NCBI RefSeq assembly: GCF_002795825.1
Contig: NZ_CP018800.1
Span: 1,240,001 to 1,304,000, forward strand
Reading direction: 5' to 3'
Origin: Mariprofundus ferrinatatus
GTDB taxonomy: Bacteria; Pseudomonadota; Zetaproteobacteria; Mariprofundales; Mariprofundaceae
DNA length: 64,000 bases
The position numbers and the translations under genes were made by a program. Below are positions 25,135-37,630 of the stretch, in pieces. The notes beneath the pieces are model-generated. The model ran no database searches and had not been told where the DNA came from. It saw only the letters and a list, made by a program, of their open reading frames with translations. Position 1 is the stretch's first letter, and the number at the start of each line of letters is the position of its first letter.

Positions 25135-28128
25135 TCAGTTGCTGCTCTTCTCCAGCTGTTCGTGAATCATCTGGCTGAGCTTGCTGACAGCAAACGGCTT
25201 GGAGATGACAGCCTCACTCATGATCGCCTCTTTATCAGCCACGCTGCTTAGTTTGTCGTAACCGGTTGCAAACAGCACCCTGACATCGGGATTGATCCCT
25301 CGTATCTCCTTCATCGCTTCAATGCCACCCATACCCGGCATCACCACATCGAGAAGAACAAGCGCGATCTCTTCTGCATGTGACCTGTACTGCTCAACCG
25401 CCTGCAGGCCATCCTCCGCAGTCAGCACTTTGTAGCCCAGTCCCGCAAGCACATCTCTGCCGCTCTCCAGTACCGTGTCATTATCATCTGCAATCAGAAT
25501 GGTTTCGCCATGCCCTTCGAACACCTCCCCATTCTCACTGCTTATCTTGAACAGCGCTTCACCCTCCATCAGCGGCAGATAGATTTTGAACGACGTGCCC
25601 ACACCGGGTTCGGATTCAACATCTACCACGCCGCCATGGCTCTTTACTGTTCCATAAACCATGGACAACCCCAGTCCACTACCCTTGCCGACCGCCTTGG
25701 TTGTATAGAAGGGTTCGAAGATTTTAGCAAAATCCTCCCGCGGGATACCCATACCGTTATCCTCCACCTTGATACAGGCATACTCATTGGCAGTCAGTTT
25801 CGGATTGGCGTGGAGAAATAGCGGGTCCGGTGTATATCTGGCCAGTGAAATCGTGATAGATGGATTTTCTGCTTCGGCCACGGCGTCGTTGGCATTATTC
25901 ACAAGGTTCATCAGCATCTGCTGCAGCTGATTCACATCCCCCTTCACAAACAGGTCAGCATCTTCGACCTCAAGCAGCAGCAAGATATTTTCCGGAATGG
26001 ATACCCGCTGCAGCTTGACTATCTCTTTCATGAACGGAACCAGCGAAACCGGAACCATGTTCACAATTCCTTTGCGGGAGAAGGCCAGCAGCTGCTGAAT
26101 CGTGGCCGCGGCACGGAATGCGAGTTTCTCCACACTATTCAGCCGCGCCACCACTTCAGGCAGCTCTGCTGCCTTGCGCTTGGCGAGATAGAGGTTGCCG
26201 GTAATGCCGGCAAGTGCGTTGTTGAAATCATGCGCGATGCCTCCGACCAGCGTACCGATCGCCTCCATCTTCTGAGCCTGATGCAGCTGCGCCTCCAGCT
26301 CTTCGAACCTCTCAAGGTTCTGCTGCAGGCCGACGTAATGGGTGATCTCACCCGCCATATCCCTGATCGGTGAAATGGTCAGCATGGCGGGATAGAGATC
26401 GCCACTCTTCTTCCTGTTGACCACCTTGCCCTGCCATGCCCTGCCATCGCGCAAGCTCTGCCACATCTCCTTAAAGAACCGGGCATCCTGTTTGTCGCTC
26501 TTCAGAATACGCGGATTCTGCCCCAGCGCCTCTTCCTCCGAATAACCGGTGATCTCGGTAAACGCAGGATTGATATGTACGATCGTGCCTTCGGAATCGG
26601 TAATCATGATCGCTTCGCCCGACTGCTCCATCGCCTGAGAGAATCGCTGCACCCTCTCCTCTGCCTGTTTGCGATCCGAAACATCGCGTGCGTAGGCCAG
26701 AACCAAACGCTGGCCAAGCTGCTCGATCATAGCGATGCGAACTTCGACAGGGAAAATTGATCCATCCTTGCGTTGATGCTCACCAGTAATCGTTTTCATG
26801 TCACCCTGTTGCATCGAGGCAAACAACGCCATCAATTTCTCAATGCTCAGTGCAAGTTCGATATCGGGCACCTTCATGGTTAACAGCTCATCCCGGCTGT
26901 AGCCGAGCCTTTCACATGCCAGCCGGTTTACATCGACAAACCTGCCCTCCATGTCGATCAGGAAGAAGGCATTTGCAGCATTATCAACAAACGAGCGTAT
27001 CCGTTTTTCACTCTCAACCAACGCGTTTTCTGCCGCCTTCAAGGCTGAGATATCGGCATAGGAGACAATCACCGAGGCAATCTCTCCATGATCGCCACGC
27101 ACCGGTTCCGCATTGACCAGAAGCCAGACCGTTTCTCTCTTCTCCGGCTTGCGGATACCGACCATCAGGCTCCTGACCGCCACCCCGTTGCTGATAACCC
27201 TGTTTACGGGATGGTCGCTGATTCCCATCTCCTGGCCATCTTTGTCGACGAAGCACCAATCAATATCAGCAACGGTTTTCCCCACCATCTGGTCTCTTTT
27301 CAAACCGAACAGCAGTTGGGCAAGCGGGTTGCAGGTTGTCACCCTCATTTCACCATCGTGAACCACTACGGCCGTGTGGATGTTCTCGACCAGCGATCTG
27401 ATCCGGGCTTCGCTCTTGCGAACCGACAAGAGCGCCTCATCGCGCTCTGATTCCCGCTGCTGAATCTTAAACTTCATAATATTAATGCTTTTGGCCAGCT
27501 CTCCGATCTCATCTTCCCGACCCACTTTAATATCGGCGCTGTAATCACCGGCTGCAATCGCCATGGTGCTTTTCTGCATTCTCTCGATGGGAGCAATCAC
27601 CAGCTTATTCAGCATCTGCACCAGCAGAAGCAGCCCTGATATCCCCAGAAGCAGGGCTACGGAGAGTTCTATGATGGTCCCTTCATTGAGCTCAGCCAGC
27701 GCAAACTGCGGCGTCACATAGATTGTAACGCGGCCGATCACTTCATCTTCGTGGAGAACATCCCTGCTGATGGAGATGTAATCCCCTTCGATATCATCCA
27801 TGGCACTGACAGGGCGCCACTGCGCATCCCGTTTTTTCCCTTCGAAGAGTTCGCCATCTGCATAAACGATGATGGCATATACGACGCGATCAGTGATCTC
27901 ATTAGCGATCACCTCCGAGGTCCACCTGTTATCGATTTCCCAGAGAGGAAGCTCCAGTGTCTCGGAAAGGCGATGAACCTTTTTTTCAGCCAGATCACTG
28001 AGTTCACTGATCACCTGCATTTTTTCACGACTGTACTCGAAATACTCGAATGCAAAGACACCGCTCAGCACCACAACCAGCAGTGCAAGCGTGATTCTTA
28101 TCCGGATACTGTTAAACAGCCGCCCCAT
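25135..28128 (-). CDS. Membrane hybrid sensor histidine kinase: TM-sensor-TM-HAMP-3xPAS-HisKA-HATPase-REC
   Basis: About 997 residues. Helices near 11-30 and 157-180 flank a periplasmic sensor of about 125 residues. A HAMP linker, PAS domains near 245-360, 370-485 and 490-610, HisKA with HDFNN at about 635, an ATPase with NLVNNANDAV, DNGMGIP and GLGLSMVYG, and a C-terminal receiver with phospho-acceptor Asp in LLDVVMP near 928 follow. ATG 28128 is favoured over TTG 28131 because GGAG lies six bases upstream. It directly follows two periplasmic solute-binding genes, whose products likely deliver the signal. It is strikingly similar in the core to the kinase at 31266, so the two are paralogues. 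Confidence 0.92.
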   Translation of the reverse strand: MGRLFNSIRIRITLALLVVVLSGVFAFEYFEYSREKMQVISELSDLAEKKVHRLSETLELPLWEIDNRWTSEVIANEITDRVVYAIIVYADGELFEGKKRDAQWRPVSAMDDIEGDYISISRDVLHEDEVIGRVTIYVTPQFALAELNEGTIIELSVALLLGISGLLLLVQMLNKLVIAPIERMQKSTMAIAAGDYSADIKVGREDEIGELAKSINIMKFKIQQRESERDEALLSVRKSEARIRSLVENIHTAVVVHDGEMRVTTCNPLAQLLFGLKRDQMVGKTVADIDWCFVDKDGQEMGISDHPVNRVISNGVAVRSLMVGIRKPEKRETVWLLVNAEPVRGDHGEIASVIVSYADISALKAAENALVESEKRIRSFVDNAANAFFLIDMEGRFVDVNRLACERLGYSRDELLTMKVPDIELALSIEKLMALFASMQQGDMKTITGEHQRKDGSIFPVEVRIAMIEQLGQRLVLAYARDVSDRKQAEERVQRFSQAMEQSGEAIMITDSEGTIVHINPAFTEITGYSEEEALGQNPRILKSDKQDARFFKEMWQSLRDGRAWQGKVVNRKKSGDLYPAMLTISPIRDMAGEITHYVGLQQNLERFEELEAQLHQAQKMEAIGTLVGGIAHDFNNALAGITGNLYLAKRKAAELPEVVARLNSVEKLAFRAAATIQQLLAFSRKGIVNMVPVSLVPFMKEIVKLQRVSIPENILLLLEVEDADLFVKGDVNQLQQMLMNLVNNANDAVAEAENPSITISLARYTPDPLFLHANPKLTANEYACIKVEDNGMGIPREDFAKIFEPFYTTKAVGKGSGLGLSMVYGTVKSHGGVVDVESEPGVGTSFKIYLPLMEGEALFKISSENGEVFEGHGETILIADDNDTVLESGRDVLAGLGYKVLTAEDGLQAVEQYRSHAEEIALVLLDVVMPGMGGIEAMKEIRGINPDVRVLFATGYDKLSSVADKEAIMSEAVISKPFAVSKLSQMIHEQLEKSSN

Positions 28129-28131
28129 CAA

Positions 28132-28971
28132 CTACTCCTGATCTTCAACAAGACTATAGATATACTCGAACCGCTTCATCTCTTCATCCATCTGATCCGG
28201 AACCTTCCCCTTGCCATAATAGGTCTCCAGGATCTCCCGGTAGCGGCCACTCTGCTTAATGCGCGCCATCCCGAGTCTGTAGAGAGCGCCAACCCTCTCT
28301 GCATCAGGGTAATCGGCCGAGATCAGCACGGCGATCGGCATGGCTGAACCGGGTATTGTGGTGGCAACAAAGTTGTCATGCTCGGCCGGGAAGAGACGGT
28401 CAATAATCTTCTTCCCCACCAGATCGATCTCAATCACCAGGTCTACTCGGCCACGTATGAGTTTCTTGAACAGGGACTCCTGCGAATAGCTCTCCTCGAA
28501 GGTTACGCCGGCTGTGGTGAAAAGACTATCATCTACCATTGTCCCCTTCAGGATACCGACTTTGTACCCTTTCAGATCCTCGATCCTGCTGACCTCTACC
28601 TTCTCAGCATGGTTCGGCGCATAGTAGAAGAGGCCGACATGATAGATGCAGACAGGGACAACCGCGGCAAAATCCTGGTTGCCCATATAGAACTCCGGAT
28701 TGCCCAGGTCGTTGTTGGAGTCATCTTCGATCATCCGCTTCAGTGGTTTGTAGTTAATTTGCGACACAAGACCGACAGCCTCTGATGCTGCATGCACGAT
28801 CTCACCGCAAAGGCCATCGTTCGGCATACTTTCAGACCAGAATGGCGGACTTTCGTTGGCATCAAGGCTGATGCTTGACCCCCTGTCACCGGCCAAGCCA
28901 TTGCCTGCTCCCAGGGCAAGGAGCATCGCAAGGCCGCAGATCAGCCTGCCGAATAGTGGTTGCAGCTTCAT
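28132..28971 (-). CDS. Periplasmic solute-binding protein, SBP_bac_3 type
   Basis: A 279-residue exported protein from ATG 28971. This start is preferred because it opens a clean signal peptide (LICGLAMLLALGAGNGLA), while the longer frame from 29004 adds an unlikely head overlapping the upstream gene. The mature protein shows the type 3 pattern: SISLDANESPPFWSE, then DLKGYKVGILKGTMVDDSLF near 130-150, and a C-terminal RYREILETYYGKG. There is no ABC permease or ATPase gene nearby; the next gene, three bases on, is a sensor kinase. I infer a ligand-capture role for signalling rather than uptake. Confidence 0.85.
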   Translation of the reverse strand: MKLQPLFGRLICGLAMLLALGAGNGLAGDRGSSISLDANESPPFWSESMPNDGLCGEIVHAASEAVGLVSQINYKPLKRMIEDDSNNDLGNPEFYMGNQDFAAVVPVCIYHVGLFYYAPNHAEKVEVSRIEDLKGYKVGILKGTMVDDSLFTTAGVTFEESYSQESLFKKLIRGRVDLVIEIDLVGKKIIDRLFPAEHDNFVATTIPGSAMPIAVLISADYPDAERVGALYRLGMARIKQSGRYREILETYYGKGKVPDQMDEEMKRFEYIYSLVEDQE

Positions 28972-28975
28972 CCCC

Positions 28976-29834
28976 TTATCTGGCCAACAGGCCCTTGATA
29001 TCACCCATATAGAGTTTCAGCACATCGCCATTGCCAAGATGCTTCTTCATAATCTCGGCATAGCGGCCATCATCCACCATTCTGCTCAGCGCCTTTCTGA
29101 AGCTTGCTGCCCGGGCCACACCCTGCTCATCTTTTTTGTTGAAGATGATGTAGAAGACATCGCTTCCGGCAACCCTCTCCATGGTGGCAAAGTTATCCTT
29201 CTGCTCGGACATGTATTTCTTCAACAGCCAGTTTCCGGTCAACACCGGCATGGCCGCAAAATCGATCTGACCTGCCGCAATCTGCTTCAGCAGCCCTATG
29301 CTTCTTCCCTCTTTCACCGACACGCCTGCCTTGGTGAACAGGGCAGTGTTTTCACCTTTATGCGCACCGTAGGTTTTCCCTTTCAGGGCATCGAGACTGC
29401 CGCTCCAGTTCAGGCCATCCGGATAGGTTGGTTTGTAGTAAAAGAACTTCTCAACCAATACTGCCACCGGGATGTAGATCAGCTCTTTTTTCTCCTCACT
29501 GCTGAAATTGAGATGTCTCCCCATCACGGCCATAGCCTGCTCCTGCAGCAGATAGTATCTCACCATGCGCTGGATCGGATGGGTGGCGATAACAGCATCG
29601 ATACCGGCATCGCTCAGAGCGGTGCGCACGATCTCGCTGAAGGGGCCGCCATCAGCCACCTCGCTGGAGATAAAGGGGGGGAAAATCGACCGTATGAATC
29701 TCATCCTTATCGACTGTAAACAGGGTGGTTGTCACTCTGGGCCCTGTTGCCGAGGCCGTCACCGGGAAGGTCAGGGATGCCAGAAACAGCAGTGTCAAGG
29801 TGAACAGGCTCAGTCTAGTAGTCATCCGTTTCAT
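28976..29834 (-). pseudogene. Periplasmic solute-binding protein gene with a frameshift in a G7 run
   Basis: ATG 29834, preceded by AAAGGAG, opens a frame with a signal peptide (SLFTLTLLFLASLTF...SA) and mature residues reading to HTVDFPP. There, at 29675-29681 (+ strand GGGGGGG), the frame runs off and stops at 29652. The rest of a normal type 3 binding protein, from PFISSEVADGGPFSEIVRTAL to the stop at 28976, is intact in the next frame. Removing one base from the run joins the two into DFPPFISSE, the family's expected motif. The downstream ORF alone has no signal peptide. This is either a true inactivating or phase-variable slip, or an assembly error. It overlaps no other gene and stops four bases before the next start. 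Confidence 0.8.
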
Positions 29835-29883
29835 AATATTCTCCTTTTACCTCAGGGCATAACCTCTTCGCAGGCGAATTCAC

Positions 29884-31215
29884 CTAATCTGCAACGGCCG
29901 AAGCCGAGATCACCAGCACCTTGTCCCAAAGTTCAAAGTGATGCCCGAACGGATTGGTCTGGCTCATGAAGATGGTAATCTTTTCATCCTTAGGATCAAC
30001 ACTGAAGCGGGTCGAGTAGATACCGGCCCACTCATAAGCACCGACTGCCCCGCTATCCACCGGATGTTCACGATCTGCCTGAATGGCAAAACCGAGACCG
30101 AACTTCCAGCCCTTGCTGTGCAGGAATTCTGCCTCATGCTCGCCGATATGGTTGGTGGCCGCCATCAGCGCAACCGTTTTTCGGCTCAGCAAGCGGACAC
30201 CATCGAGTTCACCACCATTGAGAAACATCTGGGCAAAGCGGAAATAGTCATAAGGGGTGGAGAGCACATTGGCACCACCGGCGAGATACTTGCCGTAAAG
30301 CGCCTCGGCATCACCCGGATTAAGGCAGAGATCGCCGCTGATGATCGGCTCAGGCTTCGCACGCTCAAGGTGCCCCTTCCAGTCACTCTTCCAGACGGCA
30401 GCCAGCCGTGGCAGTTTCTCTTTTGGAATATAGAAGTGGCTGTCGTTCATCTTCAGAGGCTTGAAGATGCGCTCGACGACAAACTTGTCGAAACGCATGC
30501 CGGAAACCACTTCGACGAGATATCCCAGGATATCGGAATTCAGTCCGTAGTCCCACACCTCGCCCGGATGGGCATAGAGCGGCAGTCTTGCCAGCCGCTT
30601 GACCATATCGCCGATTGTCTCATTCGGTCGGCAGAAGCCATCGGTAATGCCTGCCTCCTTGTAGAGATCGACCACCATATTGCGGGCAGGATTGGGATAG
30701 ACGTCATTCAAAAAGAGATAAAGGATGCCGGATGTGTGGGCCAGCAGGTCACGGATCTGCACCTCACGCTTGACCGGCTCCAGCCGGTAAGGGAAATCGG
30801 CACCCGCCGGATTGGGCACAAGCACCTTCTGGTTGCGGAACTCGGGGATATATTTGGCGACAGGATCCGAGAGCAGAAGCTTGCCCTCTTCGTAAAGCAT
30901 CATGATCGCAGCACTGGTAATCGGCTTGGTCATCGAAACAATACGGAAGATCGTATCCGTCCGCATCGGCTTGCCGACATCGGCCAGCCCCGACTCATGC
31001 AGGTAGGCGATCTTGCCCTTGCGTGCGACCAGCACTACCGCACCGCCGATCTTCTTTTCAGCCACGTAGCCGTCAATCAGCCGATCCATATTTTTCAACC
31101 GTTCGGAGGAGAGCCCCACCTTCTCAGGTTTGACAATTTTATAATCAGCGGCGGAAGCATGTGAGAGAATCCCGAATGAGCATAACAGGCACAGCGCTAC
31201 TAACAGTTTATTCAT
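29884..31215 (-). CDS. Exported serine hydrolase, beta-lactamase class C/esterase type
   Basis: A 443-residue periplasmic enzyme with a signal peptide (VALCLLCSFGILSHASA, cut near residue 22). The catalytic SxxK is SMTKPITSA near residue 95, and the YxN motif is WDYGLNSDIL near 220. A third motif is less clear; an HxG- or KTG-like element cannot be placed with certainty. Members are EstB-like esterases or penicillin-recognising enzymes, often of unknown substrate. It lies between the hybrid kinase at 31266 and the binding-protein genes, all leftward, with gaps of about 50 bases on either side. Confidence 0.88.
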   Translation of the reverse strand: MNKLLVALCLLCSFGILSHASAADYKIVKPEKVGLSSERLKNMDRLIDGYVAEKKIGGAVVLVARKGKIAYLHESGLADVGKPMRTDTIFRIVSMTKPITSAAIMMLYEEGKLLLSDPVAKYIPEFRNQKVLVPNPAGADFPYRLEPVKREVQIRDLLAHTSGILYLFLNDVYPNPARNMVVDLYKEAGITDGFCRPNETIGDMVKRLARLPLYAHPGEVWDYGLNSDILGYLVEVVSGMRFDKFVVERIFKPLKMNDSHFYIPKEKLPRLAAVWKSDWKGHLERAKPEPIISGDLCLNPGDAEALYGKYLAGGANVLSTPYDYFRFAQMFLNGGELDGVRLLSRKTVALMAATNHIGEHEAEFLHSKGWKFGLGFAIQADREHPVDSGAVGAYEWAGIYSTRFSVDPKDEKITIFMSQTNPFGHHFELWDKVLVISASAVAD

Positions 31216-31265: not shown

Positions 31266-34046
31266 CTAACCCTCCAGCACCTGACGTATAACCTGACTTA
31301 TTTCACATACGGCATAGGGCTTGGAGATCACCCGCTCATCAATCTTTTCCCTCTCTTTACCAAGCGCACTCAACTTGTCGTAACCGGTGGCATAGATCGC
31401 CTTGGCATCGGGGTTGATCATCCGCATCTGCCGAAGAGCCTCAGGACCTCCGAGATGCGGCATCACCACATCGAGAATGACCAGATCAATCTCCTGGAAA
31501 TGACGCCGGTATTCTGCCACTGCAAGCTGCCCGTCCAGGGCTGTGATCACGTGATAATTCAGCCCCTCGAGAATATCCCTGCCGATCTCCAGCACACTCT
31601 CGTTGTCATCGACCAGCAGGATCGTTTCGCCCTCTCCCATCACCACCTCATCGGTTTCAGCCTGGAGATGGATAGCCTCTTCAGCACTTACAAGCGGCAG
31701 ATAGAGTGAGAACACCGCACCTGAGCCGGGCTTTGACTCGACATCGATCACACCGCCATGGCTGCATATTGTGCCATACACCATCGAGAGGCCAAGTCCG
31801 CTCCCCTTGTCTACACTCTTGGTGGTAAAGAAAGGTTCGAAGATATGATCGAGGTGCTCTTCGCTGATCCCCATGCCGTTATCCCTCACCCTGATCAGAG
31901 CGAAATCTTTACCATCGACAACGTTATGGTGCTGCATGAAATAGTCATCGGCATGGAATCGCTCCAGCACCACCTCAATGGAAGGGGATGCCGCCTCTGC
32001 AACCGCATCGAAGGCGTTGTTCACCAGATTCATCAGCACCTGCTGCAGCTGGTTGATATCGCCCCTGACCAGCATATCCTTCTCTTTAATATCGAGATTG
32101 AATGCGATGTTCTCCGGCAGGGATACCCTCTGCAGCTTGATCGCCTCCTTGAGAAAGGATGAGATCGACAGGGTTTGCATCTGGACAACATCCTTGCGGG
32201 AGAAGGCGAGCAGCTTCCGAATCGTTGCTGCGGCACTGAATGACAGTTTCTCGACAACGTCGAGGTGCTTGATCACCTCCGGCATGGCGGCGACCTTTCT
32301 TTTGGCGAGATAGAGGTTGCCGGTGATGCCTGCCAGCGTGTTGTTGAAATCGTGGGCAATGCCGCCCACCAGCGTGCCGATCGCCTCCATCTTCTGGGCC
32401 TGATGGAACTGCTCCTCCAACGCCTCGTACTCCTTCAATCCCTGCTGGATACCGATGTAATTGGTGATGTTGCCATCCTCATCCCTGATCGGTGAGATAG
32501 TGAGCATCGCAGGGTAGAGCTCCCCGGACTTCGCCCTGTTGATCACCTTGCCCTGCCACATCCGACCAGCCGAAATCGTCTCCCACATGCTCCTGTAGGC
32601 CTGGTTGTGCTGGCCACCACCCTTGAGCAGGCGATGATTTTTCCCGATGGCCTCCTCTTCGCTGTATCCGGTCAGCGTGGTAAAGGCCGGATTGATATAT
32701 TCGATGGTACCCTCAAGGTCGGTGATCGCTACCGCCTCACCGGACTGCTCAATCGCCTGCGAGAGCCTGCGCACCTGAGCCTCGGCCTGCTTGCGTTCGC
32801 TGATATCTCTGACAAATCCCTGCCACTGGCCATCTGGAAGGATGTTGGCACTCACCTCAACCGGAACGTATGTGCCATCTTTTCTCTTAAGCCTCCATTC
32901 CGAGGTATTGGTGCCGCCATCAAGCATCTCATCCTTTGATTTCTGAAGGCGTTGAAGATCTTCCGGAGGAAACAGATCAACAATCGTTTTACCGATGATT
33001 TCATCGCGCTCGAAACCGAGCATCTGACAACCGGCACTATTCACATCGACATATTGTCCATTGATGTCCGCTATGAAAATTCCGTCGGAAGCCTGCTCAA
33101 CCACCTGCCTGAATCGCTCTTTGGTCTGCAACAGTTCAGCTTCAGCCCGCTTGCGCTCGGTTACATCGTAACCGATCGAGAGCAGGCCGATCACCTCCCC
33201 TTGCGTATTCCTGTGGGTATGATCATACCACTCAACAATAATCTCATGGCCATCTTTGGCGATGATCGGATTGATGTTGCCGCGCGTCTTTATATCACTG
33301 ATCGCCGCGGAAAAAAGCTCGCGGATTTCGCTGTGATCGGCGGGCGGCAGGAAGGTATCGAACCAGTCCTTCCCCTTCACCTCTTCCAGCGTATAGCCGC
33401 TCAACTGCTCCATGAACGGATTGATATATTCAATGCTTCCATCCCTGTTCAAAAGCAGCATGATCGTCTGGGCAGTCTCAAGAAGTCCCGCAGAAAAATC
33501 GCGCTCTGCTCTCAAGGTGCTGTTTTTATCCTGAAGCTCCTGCCGCTGCTCTTTCACCCTGCGCATCAGGTTCCACTTCTGGACCAGTGCCGCGGCGATC
33601 TGCTGAATCTCGACACTCTCAAAGGGCTTTTTCAGCACCAGCAGCTGATCGGTAGCGCCCAGCTCCTTCTGAATACGTTCCCAGCTGTAGTCGGAGTAGG
33701 CTGTCACAATGATGACCTGGATATCCGGATCGACCTGCCATATATGTTTGATTGTTTCGACACCATCCCAGCCCGGCGGCATGCGCACATCGACAAAAGC
33801 CACGGCATAGGGGCGACCCTCTTCCCCCGCTTTCTGCACAAGTTCCACGCCCTGGCTGCCCTGAGAAGCGCAGTCGACTTCATAGACCGGCATTGCAACC
33901 TCATTTTCAGCTTCATGGCCAAGAATGTCGGCAGCCAGGGAATCGGCTGCACTGGAAGCAACAGGAGAGCTCAGAACACGCCTGAAATCAGCCTGAATCT
34001 CGGCCATGTCATCAATGACAAGGATTCTTCTGTTTATCTCATCCAT
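31266..34046 (-). CDS. Soluble hybrid kinase: REC-3xPAS-HisKA-HATPase-REC
   Basis: A 926-residue cytoplasmic protein with no membrane helix. An N-terminal receiver (ILVIDDMAEIQ; Asp in FVDVRMPPGWDG near 103) carries an unusual acidic insertion between its first helix and second strand. PAS domains lie near 190-300, 310-425 and 430-545. The phospho-acceptor His is in HDFNNTLAG near 570, the ATPase shows NLVNNAFDAV, DNGMGIS and GLGLSMVYG, and a C-terminal receiver has LVILDVVMPHLGG near 860. It starts ten bases after the DUF1638-like kinase gene, so its N-terminal receiver is a plausible acceptor for that kinase's phosphate, which would make this a multi-step relay. Confidence 0.92.
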   Translation of the reverse strand: MDEINRRILVIDDMAEIQADFRRVLSSPVASSAADSLAADILGHEAENEVAMPVYEVDCASQGSQGVELVQKAGEEGRPYAVAFVDVRMPPGWDGVETIKHIWQVDPDIQVIIVTAYSDYSWERIQKELGATDQLLVLKKPFESVEIQQIAAALVQKWNLMRRVKEQRQELQDKNSTLRAERDFSAGLLETAQTIMLLLNRDGSIEYINPFMEQLSGYTLEEVKGKDWFDTFLPPADHSEIRELFSAAISDIKTRGNINPIIAKDGHEIIVEWYDHTHRNTQGEVIGLLSIGYDVTERKRAEAELLQTKERFRQVVEQASDGIFIADINGQYVDVNSAGCQMLGFERDEIIGKTIVDLFPPEDLQRLQKSKDEMLDGGTNTSEWRLKRKDGTYVPVEVSANILPDGQWQGFVRDISERKQAEAQVRRLSQAIEQSGEAVAITDLEGTIEYINPAFTTLTGYSEEEAIGKNHRLLKGGGQHNQAYRSMWETISAGRMWQGKVINRAKSGELYPAMLTISPIRDEDGNITNYIGIQQGLKEYEALEEQFHQAQKMEAIGTLVGGIAHDFNNTLAGITGNLYLAKRKVAAMPEVIKHLDVVEKLSFSAAATIRKLLAFSRKDVVQMQTLSISSFLKEAIKLQRVSLPENIAFNLDIKEKDMLVRGDINQLQQVLMNLVNNAFDAVAEAASPSIEVVLERFHADDYFMQHHNVVDGKDFALIRVRDNGMGISEEHLDHIFEPFFTTKSVDKGSGLGLSMVYGTICSHGGVIDVESKPGSGAVFSLYLPLVSAEEAIHLQAETDEVVMGEGETILLVDDNESVLEIGRDILEGLNYHVITALDGQLAVAEYRRHFQEIDLVILDVVMPHLGGPEALRQMRMINPDAKAIYATGYDKLSALGKEREKIDERVISKPYAVCEISQVIRQVLEG

Positions 34047-34055
34047 CGTTGTACC

Positions 34056-35891
34056 TTAACCATGTTTCACCGTAAGCGGCAATTCAAGCCTGAAACAGGC
34101 GCCCATGTCTGTGTCACCATGTGCCAGTGATAATCTGCCGCCCATCTCGAAGGCAAGATTGGCAGCATTGTGCAGCCCAAAACCGGAGTGACCCACTTTG
34201 GTAGTGAACCCATGCAAGAACGCCTTCTCTCTTAATTCATCACTGATCCCGGGGCCATTATCAGCAACTTCGAAGTAGAAGTGGTCATAACCAGCCATCT
34301 GCACACTCAGTTTGAGCAACCTCTTCCGGCCATCGACCTGAGAAAGCGCTTCTGTCGCATTCATTAACAGGTTCCCAAGCACCTGTAACACCTTGTGCTT
34401 CTGCAGCGCGCAGGTGGGAACAGGGCCAATTTCCTGATCCAGTTCGATATCCAATTCATGAATACGCTGGGCATTCTGATTCAGGACAATCTTCAACAGC
34501 TTCGCCGGGCTAACCGGCTCCAGAGGCTCATCGTTTGCCAGCGCTCCGCTTTGTGACTGCACGATAGCCCTGACATGTTCAACATACTCGGCCAGCCACC
34601 CGAGTTCATCACGCCACTGCATCTGCTCAGTATCCAATGCGCTGGCAAGTTGATCGAAATAGGCTGGAATCTTTTGACCCTTGGGGTCAGAGGCGATGAA
34701 CTCGCCTAGCCTGTCCCCTTGCTCATGCATCAGCGCCACGATGGCAGGAAGGCTTCTGATCGAAGATCTCTCAAGTAGTGACTGCAGCTGCTGCACGGAT
34801 ATATTGATGCTGTTAAGCGTATTGCCGGCATTGTGGATCACTTCGCGGGCTACTTCCCCCTTGCCGGAATCGTGAGAAAGGTCGGCAATCATCTGGAAAT
34901 CGCGGGCATGACTGATGGCAAGACTCGCCACGTTACGGATCAGGAGCGCCATATTCAGGTAACGACTGCGATACTGGGGAAAGGCGATCTTCTCAACTGC
35001 GATAAATCCGAATGTTTCATCGGAACTGCTGATTCTTACCCAGAAACCAGTGTCATCAATCCAGCCATAATCGCCGCCGGCAGGGTCAATCGATGCCCGT
35101 GCGGCAGTGGCGTGATCCGGCTCCGAACAGAGAGGTTGGCCAAAATCGCCCTCCTCCCATGGGGTATAGGAGCACTGCTTTGGTGCCAGCAGCATCTGGA
35201 AGGTGTCGATCAATGTATGGATGATGTCGAATTCACTTTTCTGGTCGGTAAGCCTGCCGAGCAGGTCAGCCACCATCGCATACTCCGCCTGCTGCCGGAG
35301 TGCCTCATCAAGCCTCTCCTGAATCTCCCCTGACGACATTTCATGGTATAAGCACTTGAGAAGCTGGCTGTAATAGCCCAGCCCCACCTCCATCCGGTCC
35401 GATGGAATATCAAGATAATTTGCCAACCCGGCAAGCCTCTGAACACTCTCTGCATCGGTTCCGGTATCAACAAGCAGCAGCAGCTTTGCCGTCTCCTGAA
35501 AAAAGGCTCTGGCATTATTCTGGTCAAAGCCCATCACACGCTCAATCTGGTTCTTCCATCCGGATAGCCATCCCGGTGTAATCAGGTAATAACCTTTCGC
35601 CATGTAGTGATTGACCAGTTGCGGTTGCATGAAAAGGTGGAAACACTGTTCGACATGGTGAACCTTGATCCTTCGATCCGGCCACTGGGCAGGATCAAGG
35701 TTACTTGTGCAGCAGCCTCCCAGTACCAGAACAGCGTCATCGCCCTCTTCATCAGCCTCAATCACCTTTTGCCAGTCGGTCGGTGGATGCCCACAGCTGG
35801 TGGGGAAATTCACAACCTTGCCTTCAAGCCCTGCTAGCTTGAGTGCTTGTTCAGTCTCGGCCCTGAAGTTATTGCAGACGACGACTATTAT
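34056..35891 (-). CDS. Histidine kinase with DUF1638-like N-terminal domain, apparently starting at ATA
   Basis: From ATA 35891 the product is about 611 residues; from the first canonical start, GTG 35813, it is 585. Residues 1-190 resemble DUF1638, a domain found beside corrinoid methyltransferases: VVVCNNF, LVLGGCCTSNL, HVEQCFHLF and YYLITPGW. A GAF-like region follows to about 320, then a HisKA-like helix with VIHNAGNTLNSI, and an ATPase with NLLMNATEAL, DNGPGIS and GFGLHNAANLA. There is no receiver or membrane helix. The first 26 residues encoded before GTG 35813 form a convincing beta-alpha-beta start, and AGGAGG lies five bases before the ATA. It follows the URO-D gene by 12 bases. The DUF1638 call is by eye. 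Confidence 0.8.
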   Translation of the reverse strand: MIVVVCNNFRAETEQALKLAGLEGKVVNFPTSCGHPPTDWQKVIEADEEGDDAVLVLGGCCTSNLDPAQWPDRRIKVHHVEQCFHLFMQPQLVNHYMAKGYYLITPGWLSGWKNQIERVMGFDQNNARAFFQETAKLLLLVDTGTDAESVQRLAGLANYLDIPSDRMEVGLGYYSQLLKCLYHEMSSGEIQERLDEALRQQAEYAMVADLLGRLTDQKSEFDIIHTLIDTFQMLLAPKQCSYTPWEEGDFGQPLCSEPDHATAARASIDPAGGDYGWIDDTGFWVRISSSDETFGFIAVEKIAFPQYRSRYLNMALLIRNVASLAISHARDFQMIADLSHDSGKGEVAREVIHNAGNTLNSINISVQQLQSLLERSSIRSLPAIVALMHEQGDRLGEFIASDPKGQKIPAYFDQLASALDTEQMQWRDELGWLAEYVEHVRAIVQSQSGALANDEPLEPVSPAKLLKIVLNQNAQRIHELDIELDQEIGPVPTCALQKHKVLQVLGNLLMNATEALSQVDGRKRLLKLSVQMAGYDHFYFEVADNGPGISDELREKAFLHGFTTKVGHSGFGLHNAANLAFEMGGRLSLAHGDTDMGACFRLELPLTVKHG

Positions 35892-35896
35892 GGCGA

Positions 35897-35902
35897 CCTC
35901 CT
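35897..35902 (-). promoter_or_regulatory. Shine-Dalgarno AGGAGG before a non-canonical ATA start
   Basis: Read leftward, a perfect AGGAGG is followed by five bases (TCGCC) and then ATA ATA GTC GTC, in frame with the kinase. The stop of the upstream URO-D gene (TGA 35906-35904) is in the same frame just before it, so the start must lie between 35903 and 35813. The only canonical start in that interval is GTG 35813, inside sequence that looks like coding protein. Confidence 0.6.
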
Positions 35903-35903
35903 G

Positions 35904-36947
35904 TCATATCTTTAGTGGATATCTGCCCCATTCATGCACCGCCTGGGAGATATTGAGCAGCACCTCATCGGGCACCTGCCAGGGAATTTCACCGTGATTA
36001 TCGGAGAGGATGAACCCTCCGCCTGGACCCGCCTTACTGATTGCATCTTTCACCGCCGATTCGGCCTGTTCGGGTGTCCAGTTACGCATCTCGATCGCAT
36101 TCATGTTTCCGAGTATCGTAAGCTTGCCTCTGCAGGCACTCTTCATGGTGGCAAGATCCTCCATCACGCTGGTGCCGACCACGGCAGTGCCGGTCTGTGC
36201 GATATCATCAACAATCGGCAGGCAGCATCCGGAAGCCATATGGGTGGCCGTTGGTCCGTTGATGCGGGAGATCGTGCTTTGAGCCACCTTGTATCCGGTC
36301 TTCAGATACATATCTCGGCTGGTAACAGTTGTCGATGCGACCGGGTCGAAGTAGCAGATCGCAGTTGCTCCTGCCTCGAGCTGGGCATTGGCCCATGCCA
36401 CACAGAACGCCTCGTTAACCTGCATCAGCTTCTCAAACAGTGGCCTGTTCTCATACATCAGCCGGATATAAGCGGGGAACCCCATCTGCATCACCGGCAG
36501 CGAGAAGGGCGACATCACCACGCCGATAATCGGGGCCTCATCCCTGATTTCAGCCTTGAGCATCTCGGTGGCCCTCAACACCTTGGCCAGACAGGCGGTA
36601 TCATGAATATCCGGCACCCAAAGATCACTGATCTGTTTCGGATCGTGGATAAACGGACGACCTGAGTTGGGTGGTCCATCTTCAAAATAGATCACCTCGC
36701 CGCCCCATGCCTCCACCTCGATCGGGGCATAGAAGAAGCTGTAGATGCAGTCGTCACGGTATTTTGCCCGAAGTTTCAATTGTCCTTCGACGACATGCTC
36801 CGCCCTTGAGAAATATTGCTCGATGGAGAGCCCCATCTCTCTGGCGCCATGCATGGTCAGCAGCAGGAAGAATGGCACCCGATCAGCCTCCTGATGGCCG
36901 AGGGTGGTCAGCACGCGCTGTAGTGACGTCATCGATTCGCCGTTCAT
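35904..36947 (-). CDS. URO-D-fold methyltransferase (MtaA/MtbA-like, uroporphyrinogen decarboxylase family)
   Basis: A 347-residue TIM-barrel protein of the uroporphyrinogen-decarboxylase superfamily. Landmarks are ADRVPFFLLLTMHGA at the N-terminus, FFYAPIEVEAWGG near 70, GVVMSPFSLPVMQMG near 140 and a C-terminal GGFILSDNHGEIPWQVP. In MtaA/MtbA enzymes this fold moves methyl groups between a corrinoid protein and a thiol using a Zn site. Here HMASGCC near 234 could give two ligands, but the usual third Cys near the C-terminus is replaced by SDNHG. It overlaps the corrinoid protein gene by four bases (ATGA). The thiol acceptor is unknown; coenzyme M use is not implied. Confidence 0.85.
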   Translation of the reverse strand: MNGESMTSLQRVLTTLGHQEADRVPFFLLLTMHGAREMGLSIEQYFSRAEHVVEGQLKLRAKYRDDCIYSFFYAPIEVEAWGGEVIYFEDGPPNSGRPFIHDPKQISDLWVPDIHDTACLAKVLRATEMLKAEIRDEAPIIGVVMSPFSLPVMQMGFPAYIRLMYENRPLFEKLMQVNEAFCVAWANAQLEAGATAICYFDPVASTTVTSRDMYLKTGYKVAQSTISRINGPTATHMASGCCLPIVDDIAQTGTAVVGTSVMEDLATMKSACRGKLTILGNMNAIEMRNWTPEQAESAVKDAISKAGPGGGFILSDNHGEIPWQVPDEVLLNISQAVHEWGRYPLKI

Positions 36948-37579
36948 GACATACCCCCTAACATACCGGAAATAATATCACGGGCCTCCATGCCATCCTT
37001 GCCTGAGGCATCGGCCCCGACCTCTTTCCAGAGGTTGTGATCAAAGCGGAACGGCGCGCCGCCTACGACCACCTTCACATCCAGCCCCTCCTGCTTCAGC
37101 CGCTTCACCAGTTCGCCGACCAGCAGGGCTGATCGCAACATCAAAACGGAGACCAGCAGGATCTTCGTGCCGTGCTGTTTGACCTTTTCAATTACCGCAT
37201 CGACATGCATGCCGTGTCCGAACTCCTGCAGTTCATAACCGCTGGCGCGCAGCGTCGAATAGACGATTCTCTCACCAAGCACGTGGAAATCCTCAAGAAC
37301 CACAATAGCCATCTCAGGTTGTTTGATACGATTGGGATCGGCGGGGGGAAGAATCTCGTCCACAAGCTCTTCGCAGATGGTGCCGCTCATATAGATCTGA
37401 GCCAGGGCATACCTTCCCGATTCCCAGCCGAGGCCGATCTTTTCAAGTGCCGGAACAACGATATTGGAGACACATGCCAGTGCCCCCTGCTCATTCGCAC
37501 TGGCCATCATGATCTCCCGGGCCGCAACCCTGTCCATATCCGCCAGCGCTTGTTCAAACCTGAGGCTCACTTCCATCAC
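36944..37579 (-). CDS. Cobalamin (corrinoid)-binding protein with B12 cap
   Basis: A 211-residue protein of the MtaC/MtmC corrinoid type. Residues 1-85 form the helical cap and 88-205 the Rossmann B12 domain. The cobalt-ligand motif DxHxxG is D97-F-H99-V-L-G102, followed by SVL at 144-146 and VVGG at about 171-174, with the expected spacing. The protein should bind base-off/His-on corrinoid and carry a methyl group. It is the first gene of the leftward operon, with AAGGAGG upstream of GTG 37579 (ATG 37576 is possible). No MtaB/MttB-like primary methyltransferase is adjacent, so the methyl donor is unknown. Confidence 0.92.
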   Translation of the reverse strand: MMEVSLRFEQALADMDRVAAREIMMASANEQGALACVSNIVVPALEKIGLGWESGRYALAQIYMSGTICEELVDEILPPADPNRIKQPEMAIVVLEDFHVLGERIVYSTLRASGYELQEFGHGMHVDAVIEKVKQHGTKILLVSVLMLRSALLVGELVKRLKQEGLDVKVVVGGAPFRFDHNLWKEVGADASGKDGMEARDIISGMLGGMS

Positions 37580-37604: not shown

Positions 37605-37630
37605 TTCAGAGTGTATCTGAAATGATTATA
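37605..37630 (-). promoter_or_regulatory. Putative -10 element with an overlapping dyad operator for the corrinoid operon
   Basis: Leftward, a perfect TATAAT lies at 37630-37625, and its expected start site falls near 37618. A dyad TTCAGA-N5-TCTGAA (37605-37621) covers that point. No good -35 hexamer is seen 16-18 bases upstream, which suggests activator dependence. The arrangement is what a repressor site would look like. This is a sequence-only prediction. Confidence 0.45.

Follow-up and report, generated by a model that had tools for sequence, protein, structure and literature searches.

What are a corrinoid protein and a methyltransferase-like barrel doing in one operon with two histidine kinases? 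The question is raised by four leftward genes of the iron-oxidising bacterium Mariprofundus ferrinatatus, at positions 31266–37579 of a 64,000-nucleotide stretch of its genome (assembly GCF_002795825.1, contig NZ_CP018800.1, positions 1,240,001–1,304,000). This whole stretch, here called the window, has a G+C content of ca. 53%, and the genome is 2,301,665 bases in one contig. The reading favored here, with a probability of roughly 0.6, is that the genes form a sensory cassette in which a corrinoid/URO-D pair is read by a DUF1638-GAF module that switches the output attached to it. That the cassette has some role in signalling is very probable. The genes are, in order (AF2, AlphaFold2; REC, receiver):

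36944–37579, minus strand: corrinoid protein with B12-binding_2 and B12-binding domains and the DxHxxG, SxL and GG motifs (Pfam, alignment)
35904–36947, minus strand: URO-D/MtaA-like barrel, with H236-x-A238, E263 and H318 replacing the His-x-Cys...Cys zinc site (Pfam, AF2, residue alignment)
34056–35891, minus strand: DUF1638, GAF-like domain, signalling helix and HNxGN histidine kinase (HATPase), with an ATA start (Pfam, AF2/Foldseek)
31266–34046, minus strand: REC, three PAS domains, histidine kinase and REC; probable phosphorelay partner (Pfam; in relatives a gene with an N-terminal REC follows the DUF1638 kinase)

The gene positions and spacings of the first-pass annotation (−4, 12 and 9–10 bases) were borne out by the open reading frames (ORFs), and its DxHxxG, URO-D and receivers at both ends of the second kinase by Pfam. 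The corrinoid protein matches B12-binding_2 (E 1e-8) and B12-binding (E 1e-15), with the cobalamin motif DFHVLG; DxHxxG is present in all 97 corrinoid sequences examined. With a helical cap and a DxHxxG/SxL/GG cobalamin motif, it has the features of a methyltransferase cognate corrinoid protein, and it matches TIGR02370 at E 8e-20, yet under the curated cut-off. The same B12-binding architecture occurs in CarH-type photoreceptors, the CarH model gives a weak match (E 1e-5), and B12 proteins with signalling domains have been proposed as light sensors (PMC11796333). Light might then break the Co-C bond in the corrinoid protein, with DUF1638-GAF reading the change. This is very unlikely – in NCBIfam the protein matches corrinoid proteins of methyltransferases best, CarH works without a URO-D partner, and the names of many cassette hosts point to sediment, groundwater or symbionts as their source. 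CarH and other cobalamin photoreceptors resemble the cassette in using a B12-binding domain as sensor, but they have no methyltransferase partner, use adenosylcobalamin and act alone on DNA or an output domain (PMC11796333).

For the sensory reading, the third gene is central. The N-terminus of its product had been likened to DUF1638, and PF07796 does match residues 41–177 above the gathering score (E 3.5e-11, 43.7 bits against 27). HATPase_c follows (E 2e-14); HisKA is unmatched by Pfam, and by inspection its position is occupied by an HNAGN motif at H353; relatives match HisKA or HisKA_2. AF2 and Foldseek place a divergent GAF domain at residues ~186–340. A profile of DUF1638-GAF matched no solved structure by sequence. 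In the AF2 model, Cys 6, 33, 61 and 83 of DUF1638 stand at or just after successive strands (2–6, 25–29, 54–58 and 75–79), so that all four lie on one edge of the sheet. All four are present in 60 of 75 sequences and none lacks two (an apparent gap in locus L022 is an artefact of the ORF start); stand-alone DUF1638 proteins share the pattern except for C33. A metal or cluster site is plausible at this modelled position. In Phaeobacter, B12-dependent methionine synthase requires a DUF1638 protein as well as a RamA-like one, and DUF1638 tracks RamA (PMC5764234), which fits DUF1638 as a part that touches corrinoid proteins. The product of the fourth gene has a receiver at each end, three PAS domains and a HATPase by Pfam.

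The URO-D barrel (Pfam URO-D, E 1e-48) was modeled at a predicted local distance difference test (pLDDT) of 92. The nearest structure is MtaA, the methylcobamide:CoM (coenzyme M) methyltransferase (4ay7; template modelling (TM) scores 0.86/0.89, 2.4 Å), with HemE at ~0.81; the match to TIGR01463 reaches 92 bits against a cut-off of 235. The fold, the zinc His and a Glu are shared with MtaA, but both zinc Cys are replaced, by Ala and His. The first-pass annotation had noted the loss of the C-terminal Cys; this holds, and in the MtaA alignment HxC has become HxA238 as well as the C-terminal Cys H318. HemE likewise has a His at the C-terminal position. In place of the MtaA/MtbA-type His-x-Cys...Cys, H-x-A...H is found in 88–90 of 92 sequences (H236 kept in 89, A238 in 88, E263 in 88, H318 in 90). 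His-Cys-Cys is the mark of S-methyltransferases, and Cys loss occurs in O-demethylases of the superfamily (PMC10418091).

Genome contigs were scanned with the URO-D alignment alone, which avoids selecting on the kinase. This gave 327 relatives, and the 80 that scored best were retrieved; most loci were labelled by their similarity to reference domains, a subset being checked with Pfam, and phylum labels follow the record titles of metagenome-assembled genomes (MAGs). These 80 URO-Ds are 62–74% identical to that of the window and come from at least 11 phyla: Thermodesulfobacteriota (30), Pseudomonadota (14), Chloroflexota (9), Nitrospirota (7), Bacteroidota (6), Bacillota (3), Myxococcota (2), Ignavibacteriota (2), and Verrucomicrobiota, Planctomycetota and Riflebacteria (1 each), with four lacking a phylum label. 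The linkage of the genes was upheld across this set: the corrinoid gene adjoins URO-D in 80 of 80, and a third gene with DUF1638 and/or a GAF-like domain is present in 77. When residues 1–175 of the kinase were used as the query, DUF1638 fusions were found in several other families of the same phylum, in neighborhoods of corrinoid, URO-D, DUF1638-kinase and receiver or hybrid kinase genes. On the URO-D tree, 89 type-1 sequences, the type of the window, lie on one side and type 2 on the other (100*, long branch). Phylum labels change 23 times on the tree, where 10 is the minimum and shuffled labels need 42; inheritance is thus partly vertical, and transfer or paralogy is likely.

The third gene varies in its output. 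It encodes DUF1638-GAF-kinase at 34 loci, DUF1638-GAF-kinase-receiver at 9, DUF1638-GAF-GGDEF at 9 (10 with L114) and other DUF1638 forms at 10 (several truncated at a contig end; L100 is a HisKA_2 kinase). Forms without DUF1638 are GAF-kinase (3) and GAF with a CxxC...CxxC tail (11). GGDEF was confirmed by Pfam in seven third genes, and a GAF-like domain is found in nearly all complete ones. At 14 of the 43 kinase-type loci the next gene after the DUF1638 kinase encodes a protein with an N-terminal receiver, as in the window; at another 18 there is no close same-strand gene after it, or the contig ends. Further histidine kinase, receiver or GGDEF genes are present at 72 of the 80 loci. Such a pairing of one fixed input with outputs that can be swapped is typical of sensory modules.

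Several features of the relatives are worth recording. The Cys tail ends all 11 GAF-only forms and two DUF1638-GAF forms; its consensus in the third genes without DUF1638, CxxCKxIRDDxGYW...CxxC, is not named by Pfam (L079 10068–10799, L092 10091–10828 and nine other loci), and the same tail ends other small proteins nearby at L081, L089, L092 and L126. By domain coordinates, the corrinoid protein and URO-D are fused in one chain at L061 (2550–4355) and L137 (1285–2985), one for each set type. An apparent URO-D-DUF1638 fusion at L120 (973 aa) and L141 was rejected, as URO-D is matched in a different frame there and the ORF owes its length to extension upstream. In cable bacteria (Electrothrix, L103, L132 and L136), URO-D precedes the corrinoid gene, and the kinase and receiver are very like those of the window; L103 has two URO-D copies.

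The genome of M. ferrinatatus also encodes a type-2 set, a distant relative of the type-1 set of the window (L021 946–12472, contig ~2,049,900–2,061,500). It comprises RACo, a corrinoid protein, URO-D, a stand-alone DUF1638 (E 9e-27), a PAS-GAF protein, an NMT1-like solute-binding protein, a kinase-receiver and a REC-PAS-kinase-REC. Genomes G001, G015 and G011 share this gene order, so that four genomes of the genus have the set, with kinases. In the type-2 URO-D, Tyr replaces the zinc His and the C-terminal Cys is gone. B12-binding_2 occurs in only three proteins of the genome (a MetH-sized frame of 1237 residues and the two cassette ones), and there are only three URO-Ds (a strong HemE-like one and the two cassette ones), so both non-housekeeping corrinoid/URO-D pairs sit among kinases. 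NMT1/THI5-like periplasmic binding proteins recur beside both set types (L021, L030–L032, L053, L065, L070 and L125), perhaps as a ligand-presenting subunit.

Could the genes instead serve ordinary catabolism of methyl compounds, with its own regulators alongside? Corrinoid and MtaA/CmuA-like proteins are catabolic elsewhere, and the mec dichloromethane cassette has a corrinoid protein, MtaA/CmuA-family proteins, a sensor kinase and a receiver in one operon (PMC9768040). It differs in having a kinase that senses through PocR, several methyltransferases including an MTII, and a catabolic role (PMC9768040). As the first-pass annotation had it, a primary methyltransferase is absent from the set, and a catabolic corrinoid methyltransferase operon is not indicated: MTTB was absent from all 12 cassette genomes searched (profiles of MtaB and MtrH were not searched genome-wide), and no catabolic family recurs beside the cassette among the neighbor families listed. 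Those listed for unlabeled same-strand neighbors (25 of 104 families) are Response_reg in 7 of 54, PAS_3 and Fic twice, and others once. DUF1638 is fused to a kinase or cyclase, and RACo is missing from most of the cassette genomes tested. Catabolism is the least probable of the alternatives, and a very improbable one.

Catalytic Co(I) chemistry usually needs RACo. The lack of RACo makes a redox or cobalamin-availability sensor the main rival to the sensory reading given above: the corrinoid protein would report Co(II)/Co(I) or B12 loading, with URO-D as a non-catalytic cap and no methyl group moved. The loss of the URO-D zinc Cys and the four-Cys site of DUF1638 speak for this too, as do the many hosts from redox gradients – sulfate reducers, cable bacteria, Beggiatoa-like bacteria and iron oxidisers. 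It is nevertheless rather unlikely. URO-D is by far the most conserved member of the cassette, with 60–74% identity between phyla and an invariant polar pocket, which argues for binding or turnover of a specific small molecule.

The reading of a corrinoid/URO-D pair sensed by DUF1638-GAF has to be weighed against several points that count against it. Of the 12 cassette genomes, 8 have no RACo, an oddity if Co(I) methyl chemistry is at work; among these, G051, G064, G069, G072, G098 and G123 are 93–100% complete. Judged from aligned residues, the thiol-type zinc site of URO-D is gone. DUF1638 is missing from 14 of the 77 third genes, and Pfam fails to recognise the GAF-like region, which is too divergent. 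The best 80 loci are the top-scoring of the 327 rather than a random sample; they include contigs of MAGs and near-copies, among them seven from Desulfotignum and the identical URO-Ds of L055 and L104.

With these points taken into account, the sensor idea is well supported as a prediction from genomics, and chemistry that normally serves to process methyl compounds seems to have become a means of sensing. The corrinoid protein, which has the ligand motif, would carry cobalamin, and the URO-D barrel would cap it as MtaA does its own partner, with a ligand at the altered metal site. URO-D would most likely methylate cobalt from a donor other than a thiol, or set the corrinoid state in some other way. 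It is likely that the chemical state of the corrinoid is the signal; the odds that the signal is specifically methylation are about even. The linkage and domain swapping suggest that DUF1638-GAF reads the state of the pair, and a reader role for this module is quite probable. The first-pass annotation had assigned the reading to DUF1638, and PF07796 is indeed fused to the kinase; DUF1638 is unlikely to be the sole reader, since it is absent in the 14 third genes noted above while the GAF-like domain is nearly universal, and the role may be shared with, or reside in, GAF. The output would then be switched. In the window a histidine kinase would phosphorylate the receiver encoded by the next gene, a relay that had been proposed before; a receiver-bearing protein does often follow, but outputs elsewhere would be kinase-receivers or diguanylate cyclases as well. 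The central proposal, that a methyl-corrinoid-type pair is the input of a signalling protein, fits what was found. The three conditions that would have spoken against it (no DUF1638 match for the N-terminus of the window kinase, genes unlinked in relatives, and a primary methyltransferase in homologous operons) were all checked, and none refuted it.

The start of the DUF1638 kinase is unusual. No ATG, GTG or TTG lies ahead of the first strand, and the frame opens directly behind the URO-D TGA, in the same frame. The first sensible codon is ATA at 35891, 5 nt past an AGGAGG. In the related genome G011 (2,537,610 bases), whose kinase is 73% identical, ATT stands at the same point after GGAGG (L022 8329–8346, plus strand; window 35889–35906, minus strand), and ATG-started relatives begin within a few residues of the ATA position. 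ATA/ATT could be a conserved non-standard start like that of infC, or be rarely read through. Read-through of the TGA into one URO-D-DUF1638-kinase chain was considered, as the frames match in both species, and is disfavored; initiation is preferred because GGAGG 5 nt before ATA/ATT is conserved. The cluster probably extends on to 25135, as judged from gene order, which is nearly the same in G011 over 25135–31215; these minus-strand genes are possibly a periplasmic branch of the same pathway. The further features are:

37625–37630, minus strand: TATAAT hexamer, a possible −10 with a weak −35, within the 107 bases that precede the corrinoid gene (from sequence; not picked by the promoter scan)
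35897–35902, minus strand: AGGAGG resembling a Shine-Dalgarno site, just past the URO-D TGA and 5 nt ahead of the ATA start (sequence; GGAGG-5nt-ATT in G011)
29884–31215, minus strand: serine beta-lactamase-family protein with a signal peptide-like N-terminus (Pfam; order kept in G011)
28976–29704, minus strand: periplasmic solute-binding-like (SBP_bac_3-like) protein (weak Pfam match; conserved in G011)
28132–29004, minus strand: second periplasmic solute-binding-like protein (weak Pfam match; conserved in G011)
25135–28131, minus strand: hybrid kinase of HAMP, three PAS domains, histidine kinase and REC, which closes the cluster (Pfam; conserved in G011)

A scan for terminators and promoters gave sites no more frequent than in shuffles, Rfam gave no match in the window, and nothing was found in a search of viral contigs.

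The roles known for corrinoid methyltransferases are catabolic or biosynthetic. Close to the cassette in composition are the mlp (MtaA-like protein) clusters, which likewise encode an MtaA-like URO-D with a corrinoid protein in a single operon, are widespread in bacteria and have no tetrahydrofolate methylase alongside (Kountz and Balskus, PMC10418091). In these clusters there are two or more Mlps with His-Cys-Cys zinc sites, a RACE activase, sulfur or selenium genes and no signalling (PMC10418091, whose text nowhere mentions histidine kinase, signal or DUF1638), whereas the cassette of the window has one URO-D with His-Ala-His, no RACE beside it, and a DUF1638-GAF-output protein; the type-1 cassette, with a single URO-D and no RACo beside it, is not an mlp cluster. 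The Phaeobacter DUF1638 of RamA-like corrinoid maintenance also works with a corrinoid protein, but is stand-alone and metabolic, with RamA (Price 2018, PMC5764234). In agreement with the first-pass annotation, which knew of no described bacterial system of this form, no corrinoid- or cobalamin-binding system wired to kinases was found in the open-access literature, with subscription papers and preprints mostly outside the search; nor was a signalling role for DUF1638 found in those parts of that literature that were accessible. What appears new is the input, where a corrinoid/methyltransferase pair feeds signalling outputs that can be exchanged; the outputs themselves are of ordinary kinds, and on a stricter reading the cassette could be called a variant of two-component signalling.

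Tentatively, and at somewhat less than even odds, the cassette represents an undescribed class of chemosensor in at least 11 phyla, in which the enzyme would demethylate a ligand onto the corrinoid and the methyl-corrinoid would be read by DUF1638-GAF, which would drive kinases or diguanylate cyclases; the signal would thus be received by catalytic methyl transfer to cobalt. DUF1638 itself gains a handle, as the GGDEF fusions should convert corrinoid state into measurable cyclic-di-GMP. If true, the finding would add a new cellular means of sensing methylated compounds or cobalamin state.

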